DNA from: Magnetovibrio sp.
GTDB taxonomy: Bacteria > Pseudomonadota > Alphaproteobacteria > Rhodospirillales > Magnetovibrionaceae
Direction of reading: 5' to 3'
Length of the DNA: 64,000 nt
NCBI RefSeq assembly: GCF_036568125.1
Contig: NZ_DATCTF010000013.1
Location: 1-64,000 of the forward strand
The notes below the pieces were generated by a model. That model did no database searches, was not told where the DNA came from, and worked only from the letters and a program-made list of their open reading frames with translations. Made by a program: the position numbers and the translations under genes. Positions 6,486 to 49,747 of this stretch are shown here, one piece after another (the stretch's first letter is position 1; every line of letters begins with the position of its first letter).

Positions 6486-7310
6486 ATGCTGACCATCACC
6501 AATCTGACCAAGACCTACCCCACCGGCACCGCCGCATTGAAAAGTGTGAACTTCACAATTTCAGAACCGCAAGTGGTGGCGATCATCGGCCCGTCCGGTT
6601 CGGGCAAAAGTACGTTGATTCGTTGTATCAACCGTTTGATCGAGCCGAGTTCCGGCGCGGTCGTACTCGAAGATGAAAACATCACGGTTCTGGGACGCCG
6701 CGATCTGCGCAAGGCGCGTCGTCGCATGGGCATGATCTTTCAAGAATACAATTTGGTCGAACGTTTAACGGTGATGGAGAACGTGCTTTCGGGGCGACTG
6801 GGTTATGTCAGTTTTTGGCAGGCGTTTCGCCGCAAATTTCCGCCCGAAGACGTCGCCAAGGCGTTTCAATTGCTCGACCGTGTCGGCCTGGAAGGTTACC
6901 ACAACACCCGCGCGGATGCGCTTTCTGGCGGTGAGCGTCAGCGCGTCGGCATTGCGCGTGCGTTGATGCAAAACCCGGCCTTGTTGTTGGTCGACGAACC
7001 GACCGCGAGTCTCGATCCCAAGACCTCGCGCCAGGTTATGCGTCTGCTGGTGGAACTGTCGAAAGAATTCGGCACGTTGACGCTGGTGAACATCCACGAT
7101 GTGGCGCTGGCGCAAATGTTTGCCGACCGCATCATCGGTCTGCGCCAAGGCGAGGTGGTGTTCGACGGCACCGCCGATCAAGTGACGGAACAAACATTGA
7201 CCGACATTTACGGTGAAGAAGATTGGAGCGCCACCATCCGCAAAGTCCCCGAAGGCGAAGATGACGACGAGGGCGACGATGATGTCGGCAAGGCCAAGGC
7301 GGCCAGTTGA
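6486..7310 (+). CDS. phnC: Phosphonate-type ABC transporter, ATPase
   Basis: The cytoplasmic ATPase of the importer, 274 aa. Walker A is GPSGSGKST (about residue 37), the Q loop is in [16 protein letters not shown], the ABC signature is [15 protein letters not shown], and Walker B is [12 protein letters not shown]; the switch His is in VNIHDVALA. The first 245 residues match the PhnC family in length and motifs. The last 20 or so form a very acidic tail rich in Glu and Asp, which looks like an extension. It lies between phnD and the two permease genes, 33 bp before the first. Confidence 0.94.
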
Positions 7311-7342
7311 GGCGTCGTTTCTAAAAGACGAGGTGAGCAACG

Positions 7343-8173
7343 ATGAGTGTCAGCAATTTAGCTTCCAATCCGCAAAACGGTGCGCCTGCACCGCGTGAAT
7401 GGCAGACCATCAAGCTGATCGAAAATCCGCTGTATCGTTACGGCCTGATCGTCGCCGCGATCGCCTATTTGATTTTTGCGGTCACCACGCTGGAGGTGGA
7501 TTGGAGCCGTATTTACACGGGCCTTCCTCGCGCCGGCGACATATTCGTGCGCATGGTGCCGCCCGATTTCTCACGCTGGAACCTGTTGGTGCGCGGCGTT
7601 TTGGAAAGTGTGCAAATCGCGCTTGCGGCGAGCTTTTTCGGTATGATCTTTGCGGTGCCTTTGGGGCTGTGCGGTGCGCGCAATTTGGTGCCCCAGCCGG
7701 TTTATCTGGTGGCGCGCACATTGATCGTTTTGACGCGTTCTTTCCACGAAATCATCATTGCGATCTTTTTTGTCAAAATTTTCGGCTTCGGTCCGTTGGC
7801 CGGCGTTTTGACACTGATCGTGGCGTCGACAAACTTCATTGCAAAGATGCTCGCCGAAGATATTGAGAACATGCCCGCGGGGCAGCTCGAAGCCGTACGC
7901 GCGACCGGGGCCAGTTTTCCGAAGCTGTTGATATACTGCATCTCGCCGCAAGCGTTGCCACGGTATCTTGGTGTTTCCATCTACCGTCTCGATGCCAATA
8001 TCCGTCACTCCACCGTGGTCGGCATCGTCGGCGCGGGGGGCATCGGACAGGTTCTCGCGGCCACCTTTACCCGCTACGACTATGATTTTAGTCTCGCCAT
8101 TTTGATATGTATCGTGGCGTTGGTGTTCATCGGTGAGTTTTTCTCCAACTGGGTACGGGGGCGGTTGAGATGA
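7343..8173 (+). CDS. phnE: Phosphonate-type ABC transporter, permease 1
   Basis: An inner-membrane permease of 276 aa with about six membrane segments. The cytoplasmic coupling loop that docks on PhnC is visible as EAVRATGASFPKLLIYCISP, followed by the family's YRLDANIRHSTVVGIVGAGG. GAGGTGA lies 7 bases before the ATG. The stop codon overlaps the start of the second permease (ATGA), so the two are translationally coupled and probably form a heterodimeric pore. Confidence 0.94.
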   Translation: MSVSNLASNPQNGAPAPREWQTIKLIENPLYRYGLIVAAIAYLIFAVTTLEVDWSRIYTGLPRAGDIFVRMVPPDFSRWNLLVRGVLESVQIALAASFFGMIFAVPLGLCGARNLVPQPVYLVARTLIVLTRSFHEIIIAIFFVKIFGFGPLAGVLTLIVASTNFIAKMLAEDIENMPAGQLEAVRATGASFPKLLIYCISPQALPRYLGVSIYRLDANIRHSTVVGIVGAGGIGQVLAATFTRYDYDFSLAILICIVALVFIGEFFSNWVRGRLR

Positions 8174-8982
8174 CCGACGTCAAACACGCCAAGAAATACC
8201 CCGAGATCTGGCGACGGTTCTCGCCGCGCGAAACGCTCATCCGTTACGTCTGGTACGTGTCCATCGTCGGCATCGCTGTGTGGTCCGTATCGGATCTCAA
8301 CATTCCGTGGTTTTATTTTCTCGACGCCCACGTTCAAGCAGGCGATCTGCTGACACGCATGTGGCCGCCGGCTTGGGGGTATTTCGATCAGTTGCTCGGC
8401 GCGTTGCTGGAAACGGTGCATATCGCGACGCTGGGTACGGTGGTCACGGTGGTGATTTCTTTCCCCATCGCTTTTTTAGCCGCACGCAACACCACCCTAA
8501 ACGCCGTCACGTGGTTGATCGGGCGCTTGATCTTGGTGACGTCACGTTCCGTGAACACGGTGATCTGGGGCTTGCTGTTCGTCGCCATTTTTGGTCCAGG
8601 GGCGCTGGCGGGCATTTGGGCCATTGCAATGCGTTCCATCGGTTTTACCGGAAAACTGATCGCCGAAGCCATCGAGGAAATCGACCAAGGCCCCGTTGAA
8701 GCGATCGAATCCACCGGTGCGTCGCGCCTCCAGGTTCTGTGGTTCGGAATCTTGCCCCAGGTTTTGCCGGTCATTTACGGAACGGTGGTGTATCGCTGGG
8801 ACATCAACATCCGCGAGTCCACCGTGCTTGGTTTTGTCGGTGCGGGCGGCATCGGGATTTTGCTCTATTCGTCTGTCAATCAGTTCCTGTGGCGGGAAGT
8901 GTCGGTGATCTTGATTTCGGTGTTCATCGTGGTGGTGATCAGCGAATTCATTTCCGCATCCGTGCGGGAACGCATCACCTAA
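8170..8982 (+). CDS. phnE: Phosphonate-type ABC transporter, permease 2
   Basis: The second permease of the importer, 270 aa, homologous in layout to the first. It has the same coupling-loop pattern, AIESTGASRLQVLWFGILPQ, and YRWDINIRESTVLGFVGAGG near the C terminus. It overlaps the first permease by four bases. Its own 3' end overlaps by four bases the stop of the leftward HAD gene, so there is no room for a terminator between them. A two-permease arrangement is known for phn transporters. Confidence 0.94.
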   Translation: MTDVKHAKKYPEIWRRFSPRETLIRYVWYVSIVGIAVWSVSDLNIPWFYFLDAHVQAGDLLTRMWPPAWGYFDQLLGALLETVHIATLGTVVTVVISFPIAFLAARNTTLNAVTWLIGRLILVTSRSVNTVIWGLLFVAIFGPGALAGIWAIAMRSIGFTGKLIAEAIEEIDQGPVEAIESTGASRLQVLWFGILPQVLPVIYGTVVYRWDINIRESTVLGFVGAGGIGILLYSSVNQFLWREVSVILISVFIVVVISEFISASVRERIT

Positions 8983-42623: not shown

Positions 42624-42734
42624 ATGGCTAAAAATTCCATTGCGGCGCGTGACGAACAGGCCTATATGAAGCGCCGCATTTGGGCCCATCGAGGGCCCTG
42701 GGAAGGCAGATATGATCAGGGATGCTGTCGTTGA
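42624..42734 (+). CDS. Possible small peptide (36 aa) ahead of the GNAT/C39 gene
   Basis: An ATG-started frame of 36 codons overlaps the GNAT gene start by 23 bases in another frame. The peptide is basic with an RDEQAYMKRRIW core, two tryptophans and a CC near the end. A weak AGG lies 8-9 bases upstream. The overlap would couple it to the next gene. No relatives are known to me; it could also be a translational leader or a chance frame. Confidence 0.3.
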   Translation: MAKNSIAARDEQAYMKRRIWAHRGPWEGRYDQGCCR

Positions 42735-43821
42735 CGACGTGCCCGCTTTAGTCGATCTCGAAAACCGCTGTTTCGAGACCGATCGCCTATCCGCCCGCAG
42801 CTTCCGCCGCTTTCTTGCCAAGGGTAAGGCAATGGTGCTTGTCGATGAAGACGACGATCACCTCCTGAACGGATACGCGCTGGTGCTGTTTCATCCCAAC
42901 ACCGCCTTGGCGCGGTTGTATTCTCTGGCCGTCGATCCCGACTTGCGCGGTCGCGGCATCGCGCGTGCTTTGTTGACGCAAGCGGAAAGTCGCACGCTGG
43001 ACCGCGACGCCACGCGCATGCGCTTGGAGGTTCACCAAGACAACGCCGCCGCGCAAAGCCTGTATCATCAATTGGGATATCGTGCCTTTGCCATACATCC
43101 CGATTACTATGAGGATCACGCCAGCGCGGTGCGCATGGAAAAGCGTCTCGCCCCGCATTTGGCGCAAGACCTCAATCGTGTGCCATATTACGCCCAAACG
43201 CTGAACTTCACCTGCGGCCCGGCCTGTCTGATCATGGCGATGAAAACCCTGCAGCCCGGCCTGACCGTCAACCGCCAGTTGGAACTGCAGCTGTGGCGCG
43301 AAGCCACCACCATTTTCATGACCGCCGGGCACGGCGGTTGCGGCGCGCTGGGGCTTGCGTTGGCGGCGTGGCGGCGCGGGTTCGGCGTCGACGTGGCGAT
43401 GAGCGACGAAACCGAAATGTTCATTTCGTCGGTGCGCAGCGAAGACAAAAAAGACGTCATTCGCATGGTCGAGGAAGGCTTTCTCGAAGAAGCCGCCGAA
43501 ACGGACATCGCCATGCGCGGCGAGCCGATGGATGCGAACGAACTGTGCGAGCACATCAGGCGCGGCCATATTCCCATCGTCTTGATCAGTGCGTATCGGC
43601 TGAGCGGCGACAAAGAGCCGCACTGGGTGGTGCTGAGCGCGTTCGACGAGCACTTCATTTATATCAACGACCCGTTTCCTGAACCGGAAAAGAATCGCTT
43701 CGACACGGATTGCATCGGTATCCCCATCACCCGCGCGGAACTGACGCGCATGATGCGGTTCGGAAGCCGCAAGCACTTTGCCTCGGTTGTCATTCATCCT
43801 TTGCGAAAGGGCAAACTCTGA
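42712..43821 (+). CDS. GNAT acetyltransferase fused to a C39-like peptidase domain
   Basis: A 369-aa two-domain protein. Residues about 1-145 are a GNAT N-acetyltransferase with the acetyl-CoA loop SLAVDPDLRGRGIARALL and YHQLGYRAF. Residues about 160-365 are a papain-like C39/double-glycine-type domain: the putative catalytic Cys is in LNFTCGPACLIMAMKTLQP, a His in EPHWVVLSAFDEHF and an Asp in YINDPFPEPE. The stop codon abuts the ATG of the RLAN/ATP-grasp gene with no gap, so the two act together. The combination is known in genome surveys of ATP-grasp amidoligases, but no product has been assigned to my knowledge. Confidence 0.87.
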   Translation: MIRDAVVDDVPALVDLENRCFETDRLSARSFRRFLAKGKAMVLVDEDDDHLLNGYALVLFHPNTALARLYSLAVDPDLRGRGIARALLTQAESRTLDRDATRMRLEVHQDNAAAQSLYHQLGYRAFAIHPDYYEDHASAVRMEKRLAPHLAQDLNRVPYYAQTLNFTCGPACLIMAMKTLQPGLTVNRQLELQLWREATTIFMTAGHGGCGALGLALAAWRRGFGVDVAMSDETEMFISSVRSEDKKDVIRMVEEGFLEEAAETDIAMRGEPMDANELCEHIRRGHIPIVLISAYRLSGDKEPHWVVLSAFDEHFIYINDPFPEPEKNRFDTDCIGIPITRAELTRMMRFGSRKHFASVVIHPLRKGKL

Positions 43822-45300
43822 ATGCCACGTTACGCCATCATCGTCGACCGCCTGAGCGATTGGAAAGGTCCCGCGGAAGGCTTCAACCTCATCAGCGCCG
43901 ACGCGTTTCTCACCAATAAGACCAAGCACAAGCGTCGGCCCGCGCGGGTCATCAATTTGTGCCGCCATTACGATTATCTGAGTGCCGGCTATTATTGCTC
44001 GTTGCTGGCCGAAGCCCGCGGCCAGATCCCGATGCCCACGGTGGCCGACGTGTTGAGCTTGCAACGCAAGAACCTCTACGCCTTTGCCCTGGCGGAACTG
44101 AACACCATCTTGAACCGCATCATCAAACGGCTGGCGGATGCACCGGAAAGCTCCTTTTCGCTGACCGTGTTTTTCGGCAAGCCCGACGATTCGCGCTTCA
44201 AGCGGTTGGCGGCGGAATGCTTCGACACCTTCCGTTATCCGATTTTGCAACTCGACATTAAGCCGGGCAAACGCTGGGAAATCTCCGCCATCCGCCCGCT
44301 GGGTCTGCACCAGGTGCCCGGCGATCTGGCGACGATGTTTTACGATGCGATGCGCACCTACACCCGCACCCGCAAGGAACTGAGCGGGGGGCGCCCGCCC
44401 GCTCAATACAACCTCGCGATTTTGTACGATCCGGACGAAGCGTTGCCGCCGTCCGACGCGGCGGCGTTCGAAAAGTTTAGGCGTGTCGGTCAAGGCCTGC
44501 GCATGGACGTGGAACTGATCACCAAGAAGGATTATCGCCGTCTGCCCGAATTCGATGCGCTGTTTATCCGCACCAACACGTCCATCGACCACTATACCTA
44601 CCAGTTTGCCAAGAAGGCCGAGCAGGAAGGTCTGGTGGTGATCGACGATCCGACCTCGATCCTGCGCTGCACCAACAAGGTCTATCTGCACGAACTTCTG
44701 CAACGACACGGCTTGCCGACGCCCAAGTCGCGGGTTGTCAACCGTCTCGACTTCGGTCCCGAAACCGCTGCCGAACTGGAAGCGGAACTGGGCTATCCGA
44801 TCATCTTGAAAATTCCCGACGGATCGTTTTCGCGCGGCATGCACAAGGCGGAAACACGCCAGCAAGTGCTCGATGGCGGCGCGGACCTGTTGAAAAGTTC
44901 ACGCCTGATCTTGGCGCAGGAATTCGTCTACACGCCGTTTGATTGGCGCGTCGGCGTGCTGCGGGGCGAGCCGCTCTATGTCTGTCAATACCTGATGTCG
45001 CGCAATCACTGGCAAATCGTCAATCACGGCAAAGATGGCAGCTTTCGCCAAGGCGGCTGGAAAACCTTCGCGGTCGAGGATGCCCCTGCCGAAGTGGTCG
45101 AGGTCGCCCGCAAGGCCGCCCACTTGATCGGCGACGGTTTGTACGGCGTCGATCTGAAGCAGACCGACAAAGGCCTGATGATCATCGAAGTCAACGATAA
45201 CCCATCGCTGGAAACCCAGGTCGAGGATAAGGTGCTCAAAGACGAACTGTATGAACGCATCCTCAAGGAATTCATCCGCCGTATTGACGGTGCGGCGTAG
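43822..45300 (+). CDS. RimK-type ATP-grasp ligase with RLAN domain
   Basis: A 492-aa enzyme expected to join an amino acid, often glutamate, to a peptide or amine using ATP. The N-terminal third is a RimK-like N-terminal (RLAN) domain (IIVDRLSDWKGPAEGFNLI; YLSAGYYCSLLAEARGQIP). The C-terminal ATP-grasp (about 255-490) has LKIPDGSFSRGMHKAE (glycine-rich loop), LAQEFVYTPFDWRVGVLRGE, and MIIEVNDNPSLETQ (metal-binding Glu and Asn). It abuts the GNAT/C39 gene. It is longer than E. coli RimK (300 aa), which lacks the RLAN domain. Confidence 0.9.
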   Translation: MPRYAIIVDRLSDWKGPAEGFNLISADAFLTNKTKHKRRPARVINLCRHYDYLSAGYYCSLLAEARGQIPMPTVADVLSLQRKNLYAFALAELNTILNRIIKRLADAPESSFSLTVFFGKPDDSRFKRLAAECFDTFRYPILQLDIKPGKRWEISAIRPLGLHQVPGDLATMFYDAMRTYTRTRKELSGGRPPAQYNLAILYDPDEALPPSDAAAFEKFRRVGQGLRMDVELITKKDYRRLPEFDALFIRTNTSIDHYTYQFAKKAEQEGLVVIDDPTSILRCTNKVYLHELLQRHGLPTPKSRVVNRLDFGPETAAELEAELGYPIILKIPDGSFSRGMHKAETRQQVLDGGADLLKSSRLILAQEFVYTPFDWRVGVLRGEPLYVCQYLMSRNHWQIVNHGKDGSFRQGGWKTFAVEDAPAEVVEVARKAAHLIGDGLYGVDLKQTDKGLMIIEVNDNPSLETQVEDKVLKDELYERILKEFIRRIDGAA

Positions 45301-45338: not shown

Positions 45339-45372
45339 CGAAGGCTCCGAAGCCGGTGCTTCGGAGCCTTCG
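45339..45372. terminator. Bidirectional-type hairpin between the ATP-grasp and FKBP genes
   Basis: A perfect 15-bp stem (45339-45353 with 45358-45372) has a CGGT loop. On the minus strand the stem is followed by TTCTTTT, so it should terminate the leftward FKBP transcript; the plus strand lacks a T run. Confidence 0.8.
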
Positions 45373-46421: not shown

Positions 46422-48305
46422 TTACTCGGCTGCTGCAGCTTTTTCTACATCAACCAAGTGATACAGGGGTGCCTTCTCCATGGTGTATTTGCCAGTCTTC
46501 GGATCACGGCGCGACACGGTCAGAACGTGCCAGTTTTCGTCATCCAGTTTCATGGCGTCACCACGGTAGTAGTAACCCGGCCAACGGGTTTCCTTGCGGA
46601 ACAAGGTGTGCTGCATCACACACTCGGACGTACGATGACGGTGCTTGACTTCCCAGGCACGCAGCAATTCGTGAAGGTCCTTGGCAGCAATCTTCTCGAG
46701 ATCTTCTTCCATGATCTTGAGCTTCTTGAGGCCAATGTTCAGCAGTTTGTCGTTGGTCATGTAGTTGACCGTCACGCCACCGCAGTATTCGTCCATCAGC
46801 TTTTGCAGACGGTCGAGAGACTGACGCGGGTTGTGGTAGTTCGGGTTGACCTCACCAGCCACGATCTCGTTGCGATGAACCTTGTAGTGTTCCATCGGCT
46901 TGTAGACTTCTTCACGCAGCTTGGCGATGGTCGCTTCGGAAACGCGAATGCCTTCGGCCTTGCCGTCGTCGATGTACTTACAAGCAGCTTTCGCAGCGAT
47001 GCGGCCTTCGGTGAAGGAACCGGACGAGAACGCGTGCGGCGTACCGCCGACCGCGTCACCGGCGCCGAACAGACCTTCGACGGTCATCATGCGGTTGTAG
47101 CCCCACTGGTATTCGGGCGGGGACACGTCTTCCGGACCGGAGCACCAAGCGCCGCAACCGGTGGCATGGGAACCCATGACGTACGGCTCGGACGTGGTCA
47201 GTTCCGGGTTTTCGTTCTTCGGGTCAACGTCCGTGGCAGCCCACAGAACGGCCTGACCAACGGTCATACCCAAGAAGTTGTGCCAGCCGATTTCTTCCAG
47301 ATGCGGGTCTTGGAACGAGTGCATGGTGACCATGTGGATCGGACCGCGACCGGCGTTCACCTCGTTGATGATCGCGTGGTTACGCAGGCAGGTCGGGATC
47401 GGACGGTGCGTCGCGTGGGAAAGTTCCGGATCCAGGTATTCCTTGCCGACCATCTGTTGCAGGGCCGGGAACCACTTGGATTCGTATTCTTCACCGTATG
47501 CGTTTTGCGTGTAGGTCTTCAGGTGCAGGAAGTAAGCACCGACCGGGCCGTAACCGTCCTTGAAGCGAGCCAGAACGATACGGTTTTCCATCTGGGTCAT
47601 TTTCGCGCCGGCGTTGATCATCAACGCATAAGCGGAACCAGAGGACCACGGTGCGTACCAAACGCGACCGGCGCCTTCACCCACGGAACGCGGTTTGAAG
47701 ATGTTGGATGCACCACCTGCGCCGCAAATCACGGTTTTGGATTTGAAGACGTGGTAGTTACCCGTGCGGACGTTGAAACCAACGGCACCGGCAACGCGGT
47801 TTTCTTTGGCTTCGTCCATCAGCAGGTGGGTGACGCAGACACGGTTGTAAACCTTGTCGGCCGACTTCTTCGCGGCTTCGGCCACGATCGGCTTATAGGA
47901 TTCACCGTGGATCATGATCTGCCAGCGACCTTCACGCAGGTAGGAACCTTTTTCCTTGTTGCGCATGATCGGCAGGCCCCACTCTTCGAACTGGTGGACC
48001 GCGGAGTCGACGTGGCGGGCCATGTCGAACAGCAGATCTTCACGCACCATGCCCATCAAGTCGATGCGGGCATAACGCACGTGGTCTTCCGGGTTGTTTT
48101 CACCAAAACGGGTGCCCATGTAACAGTTGATCGCGTAGAGACCCTGGGCAACAGCGCCGGAACGGTCGATGTTGGCCTTTTCGGCAATCACGATCTTCTT
48201 GTTTTTACCCCAGTAGCGGGCTTCGAAAGCTGCGCCCGTACCGCCAAGGCCAGCACCGGCGACCAGGATGTCGATGTTATCTTCGACGATAGTTTTGTAA
48301 GCCAT
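46422..48305 (-). CDS. aprA: Adenylylsulfate (APS) reductase, alpha subunit
   Basis: The FAD-containing catalytic subunit of dissimilatory APS reductase, 627 aa, which interconverts APS and sulfite plus AMP. The FAD-binding motif is DILVAGAGLGGTGAAFEA; further conserved segments include ERSGAVAQGLYAINCYMG-type NIDRSGAVAQGLYAINCY, CGAGGASNIFKPRSVGEG and YEPVMGSHATG-like EPYVMGSHATGCGAWCSG. It overlaps aprB at the ATG. The codon bias is strong, consistent with high expression. In an aerobic alphaproteobacterium it most likely works oxidatively, turning sulfite into APS for energy. No ATP sulfurylase (sat) gene is within the window. Confidence 0.96.
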   Translation of the reverse strand: MAYKTIVEDNIDILVAGAGLGGTGAAFEARYWGKNKKIVIAEKANIDRSGAVAQGLYAINCYMGTRFGENNPEDHVRYARIDLMGMVREDLLFDMARHVDSAVHQFEEWGLPIMRNKEKGSYLREGRWQIMIHGESYKPIVAEAAKKSADKVYNRVCVTHLLMDEAKENRVAGAVGFNVRTGNYHVFKSKTVICGAGGASNIFKPRSVGEGAGRVWYAPWSSGSAYALMINAGAKMTQMENRIVLARFKDGYGPVGAYFLHLKTYTQNAYGEEYESKWFPALQQMVGKEYLDPELSHATHRPIPTCLRNHAIINEVNAGRGPIHMVTMHSFQDPHLEEIGWHNFLGMTVGQAVLWAATDVDPKNENPELTTSEPYVMGSHATGCGAWCSGPEDVSPPEYQWGYNRMMTVEGLFGAGDAVGGTPHAFSSGSFTEGRIAAKAACKYIDDGKAEGIRVSEATIAKLREEVYKPMEHYKVHRNEIVAGEVNPNYHNPRQSLDRLQKLMDEYCGGVTVNYMTNDKLLNIGLKKLKIMEEDLEKIAAKDLHELLRAWEVKHRHRTSECVMQHTLFRKETRWPGYYYRGDAMKLDDENWHVLTVSRRDPKTGKYTMEKAPLYHLVDVEKAAAAE

Positions 48306-48787
48306 TAGTAGTAGACCCCCTTCTTCATCTGGAGTCCGTTGGATTCCAGGGTATGCAACCCGCCGTCATCCATACGGATGTACTTCGGCTCGTTATACAG
48401 CAACTGGCTGTCGCGCTGTTCCTGAGAAGGAGCAGAAGCGTTGGCGAGTTGAGGGATGGCCGTGCCCCAGGGCTTGGTGGTGATCGGAGCCAGCAGGTTC
48501 AGGTCTTTCTTGCCGTTGCGGAATTTGATGCGCCAAGCAATGACGCCCTTTTCCTCGTCACGGACAGCGCGGACGCTGTGGCCGAGCGGTGCAAAGTCGG
48601 CGTAGCCGCGCACGTCGATGGCGTTCTGCGGGCAAGCCTTCACACAGGAGTAGCACTCCCAGCACATGTTCGGTTCGATGTTGTAGGCACGACGGTAGGT
48701 CGTGTCGATGTGCATGATGTCGGACGGGCAGATATCAACGCAGTGTCCGCAGCCGTCACATCGTGTCATGTAGACAAAAGTAGGCAT
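48305..48787 (-). CDS. aprB: Adenylylsulfate reductase, beta subunit
   Basis: The iron-sulfur subunit, 160 aa, carrying two [4Fe-4S] clusters that connect AprA to its electron acceptor. Cluster motifs are TRCDGCGHCVDICPSDIMHI and MCWECYSCVKACPQNAIDV. The C-terminal tail (LLAPITTKPWGTAIPQLAN and after) wraps AprA in known structures. It lies 42 bp downstream of aprM, and its stop overlaps the aprA start. Confidence 0.97.
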   Translation of the reverse strand: MPTFVYMTRCDGCGHCVDICPSDIMHIDTTYRRAYNIEPNMCWECYSCVKACPQNAIDVRGYADFAPLGHSVRAVRDEEKGVIAWRIKFRNGKKDLNLLAPITTKPWGTAIPQLANASAPSQEQRDSQLLYNEPKYIRMDDGGLHTLESNGLQMKKGVYY

Positions 48788-48829
48788 AATTCGTTTCCTT
48801 CCCTGTTAGAAAGAATCTTTCAGGTTTGA

Positions 48830-49675
48830 TTAGTAGTGCTTAGGCTGCTCGCGCTTGATGCCAAGGCCCATGTAAGACGGGTTCGTGCCCATGTATTCCG
48901 GGATATCGGGGAACCGCTTTTGCAATGCGGGGTCCGTCAGATCTACCGGCTCCGGCAGGTTTTCACGGGAACCATCGGCTTTGATGACGCGCTTGTTGAA
49001 AGCAGCCGCCGGCTTGAAGAACATGTGAGCGAACTTCGACCACAAGACACCGGCAAACAGAACCGTAGCGGAGATGATGAACAACGCCAGGAACAGGGTC
49101 GTCCAAACGGCGACGCCTTTGGCTTGCAGGATGGCCCAGACCAGACCGAAGGTCGTGGTGCCCAGCAGGGACAGGATGAACATGTCAGCCTTCACGATGC
49201 GGTAGCAGGGAACACCTTCAGCAGCGACATCGACGCGGATGAAGAACCAGAACCAGTAACCGCCGAACATGACCATCGCGGCACCCAGGTGCCAGAGCTG
49301 AGAGACGATGCCCGGAGCTTCGTGGGTCGGGTAGGCGAACACCAAGGCAACGGTCGTCAAAATGAACAGAATGAAACCGTACATGGTGAACAGGTGCGAA
49401 ATCCGGCGTTTGGGGTTGCAGAACTCCCCCGACGTCGCCACATCTACGACAACCGTGCTAACGGCGATGCCGATCTTGTCGCCGGCACCCAGTACTCGCG
49501 TACGTGCAGCTTCGGCGGATTTGGCTTTGGCAAAAAAGTATTTGGCGCTTTTCTTGTGGATCATGTCCACAACCGTTCCGCCAACGACCAAGATCGCCAT
49601 TAAAATGACATAACCTTGGATAACGTTAAGCGGAATGGTCGTCGCAAGATCAGCGAATGGATTACTGGCGAACAT
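48830..49675 (-). CDS. aprM: AprM-type membrane anchor of APS reductase
   Basis: A 281-aa inner-membrane protein with about six segments, of the AprM type that links AprAB to the quinone pool in sulfur oxidisers lacking the Qmo complex. The N terminus is MFASNPFADLATTIPLNVIQ, then a CNPKRRISHLFTMYGFILF segment and histidines suited to quinone or haem contact (QLWHLGAAMVMFGGYW). The start at 49675 has GGAGG 6 bases upstream; an in-frame ATG 27 bases earlier has no site. It is the first gene of the apr transcript. The AprM call rests on context and pattern, not on alignment. Confidence 0.82.
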   Translation of the reverse strand: MFASNPFADLATTIPLNVIQGYVILMAILVVGGTVVDMIHKKSAKYFFAKAKSAEAARTRVLGAGDKIGIAVSTVVVDVATSGEFCNPKRRISHLFTMYGFILFILTTVALVFAYPTHEAPGIVSQLWHLGAAMVMFGGYWFWFFIRVDVAAEGVPCYRIVKADMFILSLLGTTTFGLVWAILQAKGVAVWTTLFLALFIISATVLFAGVLWSKFAHMFFKPAAAFNKRVIKADGSRENLPEPVDLTDPALQKRFPDIPEYMGTNPSYMGLGIKREQPKHY

Positions 49676-49747
49676 CAATTCCTCCCGTGTCGTAGTCGTC
49701 AATTATTGAAAAATCTATGTGTTTAGAGTCTTTTCCATTAGCGAGGC

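Follow-up and report, generated by a model that had tools for sequence, protein, structure and literature searches.

The core of a two-gene unit in a 64,000-nucleotide window of Magnetovibrio sp. DNA (contig NZ_DATCTF010000013.1, positions 1 to 64,000; the window below is this whole stretch) is an amine-capping enzyme plus an RLAN ligase, with the peptidase-like domain DUF3335 as an optional C-terminal extension of the capping acetyltransferase. Gene 1 (42712-43821, + strand, ATG start) encodes a 369-residue protein with a GNAT acetyltransferase domain followed by DUF3335, which is papain/C39-like. Gene 2 (43822-45300, + strand, ATG start) encodes a 492-residue ligase composed of an RLAN domain and a RimK-type ATP-grasp domain. 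The TGA stop of gene 1 (43819-43821) is followed with zero gap by the ATG at 43822. This junction and the Pfam domain assignments bear out the initial annotation, which had described an acetyltransferase fused to a C39-like domain directly ahead of an RLAN/RimK-type ligase. Our working interpretation, held tentatively and just short of even confidence, is that the two genes would form a self-contained cytosolic pathway in which an N-capped short peptide is built and turned over.

The assignment of the core follows from the fact that either GNAT or GCS2 accompanies RLAN in nearly all loci, with direct fusions confirming the coupling. Among 105 RLAN loci inspected within a 4 kb radius, many of which are near-copies (e.g. 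in Competibacteraceae) so that the counts are not independent, 83 had GNAT without GCS2, 15 had GCS2 without GNAT, none had both and seven had neither, four of the seven being cut short by the edge of a contig. A set of 299 Pseudomonadota genomes was drawn evenly with a completeness filter of 90%, and in 10 of the 10 among them that have RLAN without DUF3335 the GNAT gene adjoins the ligase. Single GNAT-RLAN-ATP-grasp proteins were found in Thalassospira, in one genome of the window's order and in two Planctomycetota (L044, L046, L047, L157, L236, L237). Four Planctomycetota (L220-L223) encode RLAN-ATP-grasp-GCS2 proteins of about 1000 residues, which carry two amide ligases per chain, akin to bifunctional glutathione synthase. 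On the ligase tree, parsimony required 11 changes for the label in which GNAT-DUF3335 is the only GNAT, 6 of them forced by well-supported branches, and 3 changes for the GCS2 label. The peptidase therefore comes and goes often and the capping enzyme is seldom exchanged. The initial annotation had placed peptide ligation, cleavage and acetylation together in one unit. Its peptide or conjugate logic stands, with a ligase, an N-acyltransferase and a papain-fold hydrolase whose sites are intact, but the three-enzyme unit does not hold as the core: cleavage is not obligatory, with 25 GNAT-bearing RLAN loci having no DUF3335 nearby, and neither is acetylation, GNAT being replaced by GCS2 in the 15 loci above.

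The GCS2 proteins are closest to YbdK/glutamate-cysteine ligase models and score under their cut-offs. A separate gene for a C39-like peptidase lies beside the ligase in 12 of the 15 GCS2-type loci, with the same Gln/Cys/His/Asp set as DUF3335. The profile of this gene aligns with DUF3335 (hhalign 96.6%, E 5e-10), and by sequence the two are homologous. FGase genes (N-formylglutamate amidohydrolase family), which belong to an N-acylglutamate hydrolase family, were present in 7 of the 15. Apart from this GCS2, FGase and C39-like set, all-against-all clustering found no third gene that recurs across families.

Several loci depart from these arrangements. The Thalassospira-type loci L044, L046, L047 and L157 combine a GNAT fused to the ligase with a GNAT-DUF3335 gene on the opposite strand. 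In L139 (8027-8824), L142 and L156, a DUF155 (RMND1-type) gene lies about 50 bp or less from the RLAN/GNAT genes. A Pseudomonas aeruginosa plasmid (L059), whose locus we take to be a copy of the PA1345 region, carries an RLAN ligase without a recognised GNAT or GCS2 nearby; its neighbours are glutamate/aspartate importer, gamma-glutamyltransferase and asparaginase genes. PA1345 itself is named in two papers, and the Pseudomonas one mentions it solely for a Cpx-box-like site upstream of the gene.

The initial annotation had proposed a co-occurrence analysis of the pair. Of the 299 Pseudomonadota genomes, 60 carried RLAN and 51 carried DUF3335; 50 had both (50/51, Fisher P 1.4e-45; by genus 27/28, P 5.8e-24). 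The two domains were encoded no more than 6 kb apart in 48 of these 50 genomes and were distant in the other 2. Chance pairing is thereby excluded. All orientations occurred among the 48 near pairs: DUF3335 was upstream on the same strand in 27, divergent in 16, downstream in 4 and convergent in 1. RLAN ligases were found in about 20% of the sampled Pseudomonadota and in 53 of 199 sampled Planctomycetota genomes (27%). Within the genus Magnetovibrio the pair is patchy, occurring in the window's own genome and in one of five others, and we therefore regard it as an accessory function. Close homologues of the two proteins are encoded in Magnetovibrio blakemorei (L015).

The DUF3335 domain ('Peptidase_C39 like', 43180-43794, + strand, residues 157-361) matches PF11814 with E 8.9e-82 and 274 bits against a curated cut-off of 25. 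In an alignment of 61 relatives, counted over rows with a letter at the position, the papain-like active site is retained. The oxyanion-type Gln162 and the nucleophile Cys168 (43195-43215, +) are each present in 60/60, His304 in 61/61 and Asp320 in 59/61, with Glu in the remaining 2 (His304 to Asp320, 43621-43671, +). The initial annotation had judged the Cys, His and Asp of the domain plausible, and careful alignment revealed no loss either of this Cys or of the ATP-grasp metal ligands described below. A family-specific G-H-G-G-C loop (residues 206-210, 43327-43341, +) is conserved as well (G206 60/60, H207 55/60, G208 59/60, G209 60/60, C210 58/60) and may line the substrate pocket. The profile search and active-site structure prediction that had been suggested for this half of the protein gave, besides the PF11814 match, an AlphaFold2 model with a papain-like fold (pLDDT 89.9); the structure-prediction alignments left out rows from plasmid records. 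Its Foldseek matches include the C39-like peptidase 3erv, which is the best single match, the PCAT1 peptidase, the phytochelatin synthase Alr0975 and CtaG. The predicted fold and the Gln-Cys-His-Asp residues place the domain in the papain-like cysteine enzyme superfamily. It shares this fold and active site with the C39 bacteriocin-leader peptidases but falls outside that family (PF03412, 14.6 bits against a cut-off of 22) and, unlike them, is encoded without an ATP-binding cassette (ABC) transporter or exporter domain.

Several DUF3335 genes located away from the pair sit in or beside importer operons, a setting that points to peptide-like compounds being taken up and broken down in the cytosol, in one case an N-acetylated one. 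On the Sinorhizobium meliloti AK83 plasmid pSINME02 (L175, 2523-8615) and on the Microvirga plasmid pMVF16-1 (L176, 1611-7654), an SBP5-type ABC importer operon ends with a stand-alone DUF3335 gene. In genome G211 (L141, 6716-14397) an oligopeptide importer operon is followed by a DoeB-like N-acetyl deacetylase gene and then by a DUF3335 gene. The deacetylase matches TIGR02994 (DoeB, N-alpha-acetyl-diaminobutanoate deacetylase) with E 4e-79, under the equivalog cut-off, and the N-terminus of the DUF3335 protein is only decayed GNAT-like. A Streptomyces plasmid has a DUF3335 gene beside an apparent FecCD-type importer, as judged by eye without a profile search. Phosphonate genes adjoin both SBP5-type operons (phnF and aepX in the case of S. 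meliloti; in Microvirga, genes that by eye look like carbon-phosphorus lyase genes), an arrangement perhaps connected with phosphonopeptide uptake and cleavage. Elsewhere, in a genome without RLAN, a stand-alone DUF3335 gene (233 residues; L140, 8620-9321) lies immediately upstream of an apparent lipoamide dehydrogenase gene in a tricarboxylic acid cycle cluster.

Transferases stand among the best structural neighbours of DUF3335, so that its reaction may not be hydrolysis. The Cys168 acyl-enzyme might instead pass its acyl group to another amine and so lengthen or branch a peptide or form a conjugate. The fold matches to the Alr0975 acyl-enzyme (E 2e-5) and CtaG (E 1.2e-4), found beside the C39 peptidases, a weak profile match to the BtrH_N-type protein CtaG (E 0.043) and a superfamily that comprises peptidases, acyltransferases and deamidases (PMC10318531) all speak for such a transferase. 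We nevertheless regard it as unlikely, since the importer operons and the single deacetylase gene around lone DUF3335 genes fit degradation better and a C39-like peptidase heads the fold matches.

In the ligase, the ATP-grasp catalytic domain (44671-45219, + strand, residues 284-466) matches PF08443 (E 2.4e-11, 44 bits against a cut-off of 21) with its ATP-Mg ligands conserved. Over an 85-ligase alignment, again counting rows with a letter at the position, K286 (85/85), K330 (83/83) and the DxR arginine R376 (85/85) were invariant, and the Mg ligands aligned with those of RimK, D444 (83/83), E456 (83/83) and N458 (82/83), were nearly so (45151-45195, +). The domain is preceded by an ordinary pre-ATP-grasp region (44398-44670, +, about residues 193-283) that aligns with the N-terminal domain of RimK from the same genome. 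The nearest NCBIfam models are those of LysX and the RimK family (E ~1e-24), and the ligase scores under the cut-offs of both the RimK subfamily of S6 ligases (TIGR00768, 87.5 bits against 143.4) and LysX/ArgX (TIGR02144, 87.5 bits against 275.6). A true RimK is encoded separately in the same genome (277 bits). The FRSNLHRGG loop of RimK is replaced in RLAN ligases by a nearly invariant HWQI motif, and the acceptor site therefore probably differs from that of RimK.

The RLAN domain (43900-44346, + strand, residues 27-175) matches PF14401 with E 1.2e-42 and 145.5 bits against a curated cut-off of 25. The initial annotation had named this extra domain correctly and had left its nature unsaid; from the structural model it now resembles a degenerate, lid-less ATP-grasp module, that is, a truncated ATP-grasp-like fold. 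The model of residues 1-200 (pLDDT 88.7) was compared with the PDB by Foldseek, and all of the best 50 matches listed were ATP-grasp-fold proteins, the top one being LysX (E 3.5e-5). LysX/ArgX, RimK, synapsin, ITPK, MdnB/C, PsnB, Ddl and their kin were among the matches listed, with a template-modelling score of about 0.55 by query length and a high root-mean-square deviation. RLAN is too short for a metal-binding lobe and precedes a complete pre-ATP-grasp plus ATP-grasp unit. At the sequence level, hhalign scored RLAN at 19.8 against its own ATP-grasp module (60 column-shuffled controls: mean 14.4, SD 2.7, maximum 24.7) and at 23.3 against RimK (shuffles: mean 13.9, maximum 21.0); the two alignments differ in register and are neither significant nor consistent as kinship with ATP-grasp, and a PDB profile search with RLAN gave no match. 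In a small divergent branch (L225) RLAN and ATP-grasp are separate neighbouring genes (6753-7487 and 7551-8447), which suggests that RLAN can act as a separate subunit. Such a split into two genes is probable in L226 and L227 also.

The GNAT domain (42745-43080, + strand, residues 12-123; PF00583, E 1.5e-16, well above cut-off) is RimI-like and, in the alignment columns, retains the acetyl-CoA loop 'RGRGIA'. It falls outside the RimI family proper (TIGR01575, 77.6 bits against a cut-off of 86.4), and the same genome encodes another RimI-like gene (79.1 bits). A tree of GNAT domains with stand-alone, RLAN-fused and DUF3335-fused proteins as possible types had weakly supported branches.

In the N-capped peptide pathway, the GNAT domain would acetylate an amino acid or a short peptide at its alpha-amine, as expected from its family. 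The RimK-type ATP-grasp domain, to judge from its relatives and its intact active site, would activate the capped acid as an acyl-phosphate at its free carboxylate and then join it to the amine of a further amino acid, for which Glu is the likeliest by family. The RLAN pseudo-ATP-grasp module may help to build the ligase's substrate site or to keep it in place. DUF3335, by its fold, residues and gene context, would hydrolyse an amide bond, either in the product or in a related peptide that has been imported. Where GCS2 takes the place of GNAT in other lineages, the cap would be gamma-glutamyl rather than acetyl. We propose this pathway because the ligase and papain-like catalytic residues are intact and the acetyl-CoA loop is kept, and because the ligase and DUF3335 co-occur and adjoin in all orientations. 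GNAT and GCS2 are mutually exclusive, each being fused to the ligase in some proteins, and most GCS2-type loci hold the DUF3335-homologous C39-like gene, while FGase is present in seven GCS2-type loci. Furthermore, the DUF3335 genes outside the pair sit by importers and once by a DoeB-like deacetylase, and the nearest relatives of the ligase, LysX and RimK, are users of Glu-type amines.

Several observations weigh against this pathway. The substrate may be a protein, since the GNAT most resembles RimI, a protein N-terminal acetyltransferase, and the closest relatives of the ligase, RimK and LysX, modify carboxylates of proteins or carrier proteins. DUF3335 is dispensable for the product, as 25 GNAT-type loci do without it. 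Among its best structural neighbours are phytochelatin synthase and CtaG, which are transferases. The two GNATs of the Thalassospira-type loci are unexplained by a scheme with one cap, and no recognised GNAT or GCS2 lies near the RLAN ligase in the P. aeruginosa plasmid locus or in L225. We know of no metabolite, mutant or enzyme assay.

The same resemblances to RimI and RimK would suit protein tagging, of the kind that these two enzymes carry out on ribosomal proteins: the GNAT would acetylate the N-terminus of a protein, the ligase would attach Glu or some other residue to a carboxylate at a protein's C-terminus or on a side chain, and DUF3335 would take the tag off. Such tagging seems quite unlikely: GNAT is swapped for GCS2, and the ligase fused to it, GCS2 being a family that makes gamma-glutamyl small molecules; clustering found no conserved target-protein gene beside the unit across families; and the same genome has separate RimK and RimI-like genes. 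A secondary-metabolite or ribosomally synthesized and post-translationally modified peptide (RiPP) cassette with a genome-encoded precursor is very improbable, even though RiPP clusters contain similar enzymes and the RiPP ligases MdnB, MdnC and PsnB were among the RLAN matches listed, given a two-gene unit whose neighbours are non-conserved in most lineages (open reading frames under 80 residues were not searched systematically), no constantly attached transporter or regulator, and a distribution across the sampled Pseudomonadota and Planctomycetota that is wider than a single specialised product would have.

By analogy, the closest known logic for an N-capped peptide pathway appears to be that of N-acetylaspartylglutamate (NAAG) metabolism in mammals, followed by N-acetylglutaminylglutamine amide (NAGGN) synthesis and glutathione/phytochelatin chemistry. 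The mammalian NAAG enzymes are the GNAT NAT8L, the RimK-type ligases RIMKLA and RIMKLB, the peptidase GCPII and aspartoacylase. There, a GNAT makes an N-acetyl amino acid, a RimK-type ligase adds Glu, and peptidase and acylase degrade the product; in the window, too, a GNAT and a RimK-type ligase are encoded together. The peptidase here is a papain-fold cysteine enzyme and not a metallopeptidase, however, and the ligase carries RLAN. Bacterial NAGGN synthesis likewise joins a GNAT with an ATP-grasp enzyme in one system to make an N-acetyl dipeptide, but with other subfamilies of both (TIGR03103, 27.8 bits against 569). Glutathione synthesis (GCS2/GshA plus GshB, or fused GshF) with phytochelatin synthase is mirrored in the GCS2-type variants, where a gamma-glutamyl-type ligase and an ATP-grasp domain, even in one protein, lie beside a papain-fold enzyme. 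The version in the window differs in having GNAT where GCS2 would be.

It is conceivable, if doubtful, that these loci represent a widespread, modular class of N-capped-peptide systems in Pseudomonadota and Planctomycetota, a bacterial counterpart of NAAG and glutathione with an exchangeable cap (acetyl by GNAT or gamma-glutamyl by GCS2), a pseudo-ATP-grasp-bearing ligase and a papain-fold turnover enzyme. If this exchange of caps is real, these bacteria would contain an unrecognised peptide metabolite, such as an osmolyte, a reserve or a thiol-like compound, and the candidate products are narrowed to peptides of the N-acetyl-X-Glu and gamma-Glu-X-Y types.

The pairing of GNAT-DUF3335 with an RLAN ligase has already been recognised: GNAT domains are often fused to DUF3335 members (PMC10318531, which refers to a 2009 survey of amidoligases by Iyer et al.). 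The exclusivity of GNAT and GCS2, the ligase-GCS2 fusion, the importers and the deacetylase gene near DUF3335 and the interpretation of RLAN as a pseudo-ATP-grasp module were worked out here and may already stand in that survey. Our literature search found one paper on DUF3335, none on RLAN and no published product or substrate for the pair, in line with the initial annotation, which knew of no assigned product. NAAG synthase is cited in a genomics paper on brackish water, which proved not to be concerned with the pair.

Within the window, Shine-Dalgarno-like motifs read from the sequence precede both genes, GGGAAGG (42700-42706, + strand) 5 nt ahead of the ATG at 42712 and AAAGGG (43806-43811, +) inside gene 1 ahead of gene 2, so that a ribosome-binding site for each is plausible. 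A glycosyltransferase 9 gene lies upstream and a convergent FKBP-like gene downstream; a 15-bp hairpin occupies the interval between gene 2 and the latter (45339-45372), with a T-run on the - strand side. In the all-against-all clustering neither flanking gene recurred beside the unit in other lineages, and the unit therefore consists of two genes only. A reading of the unit as a defence system was rejected, PADLOC giving no match. Further downstream (46422-49702, - strand), there are genes that, from their open reading frame translations, look like an AprAB adenylylsulfate reductase set with a membrane partner.

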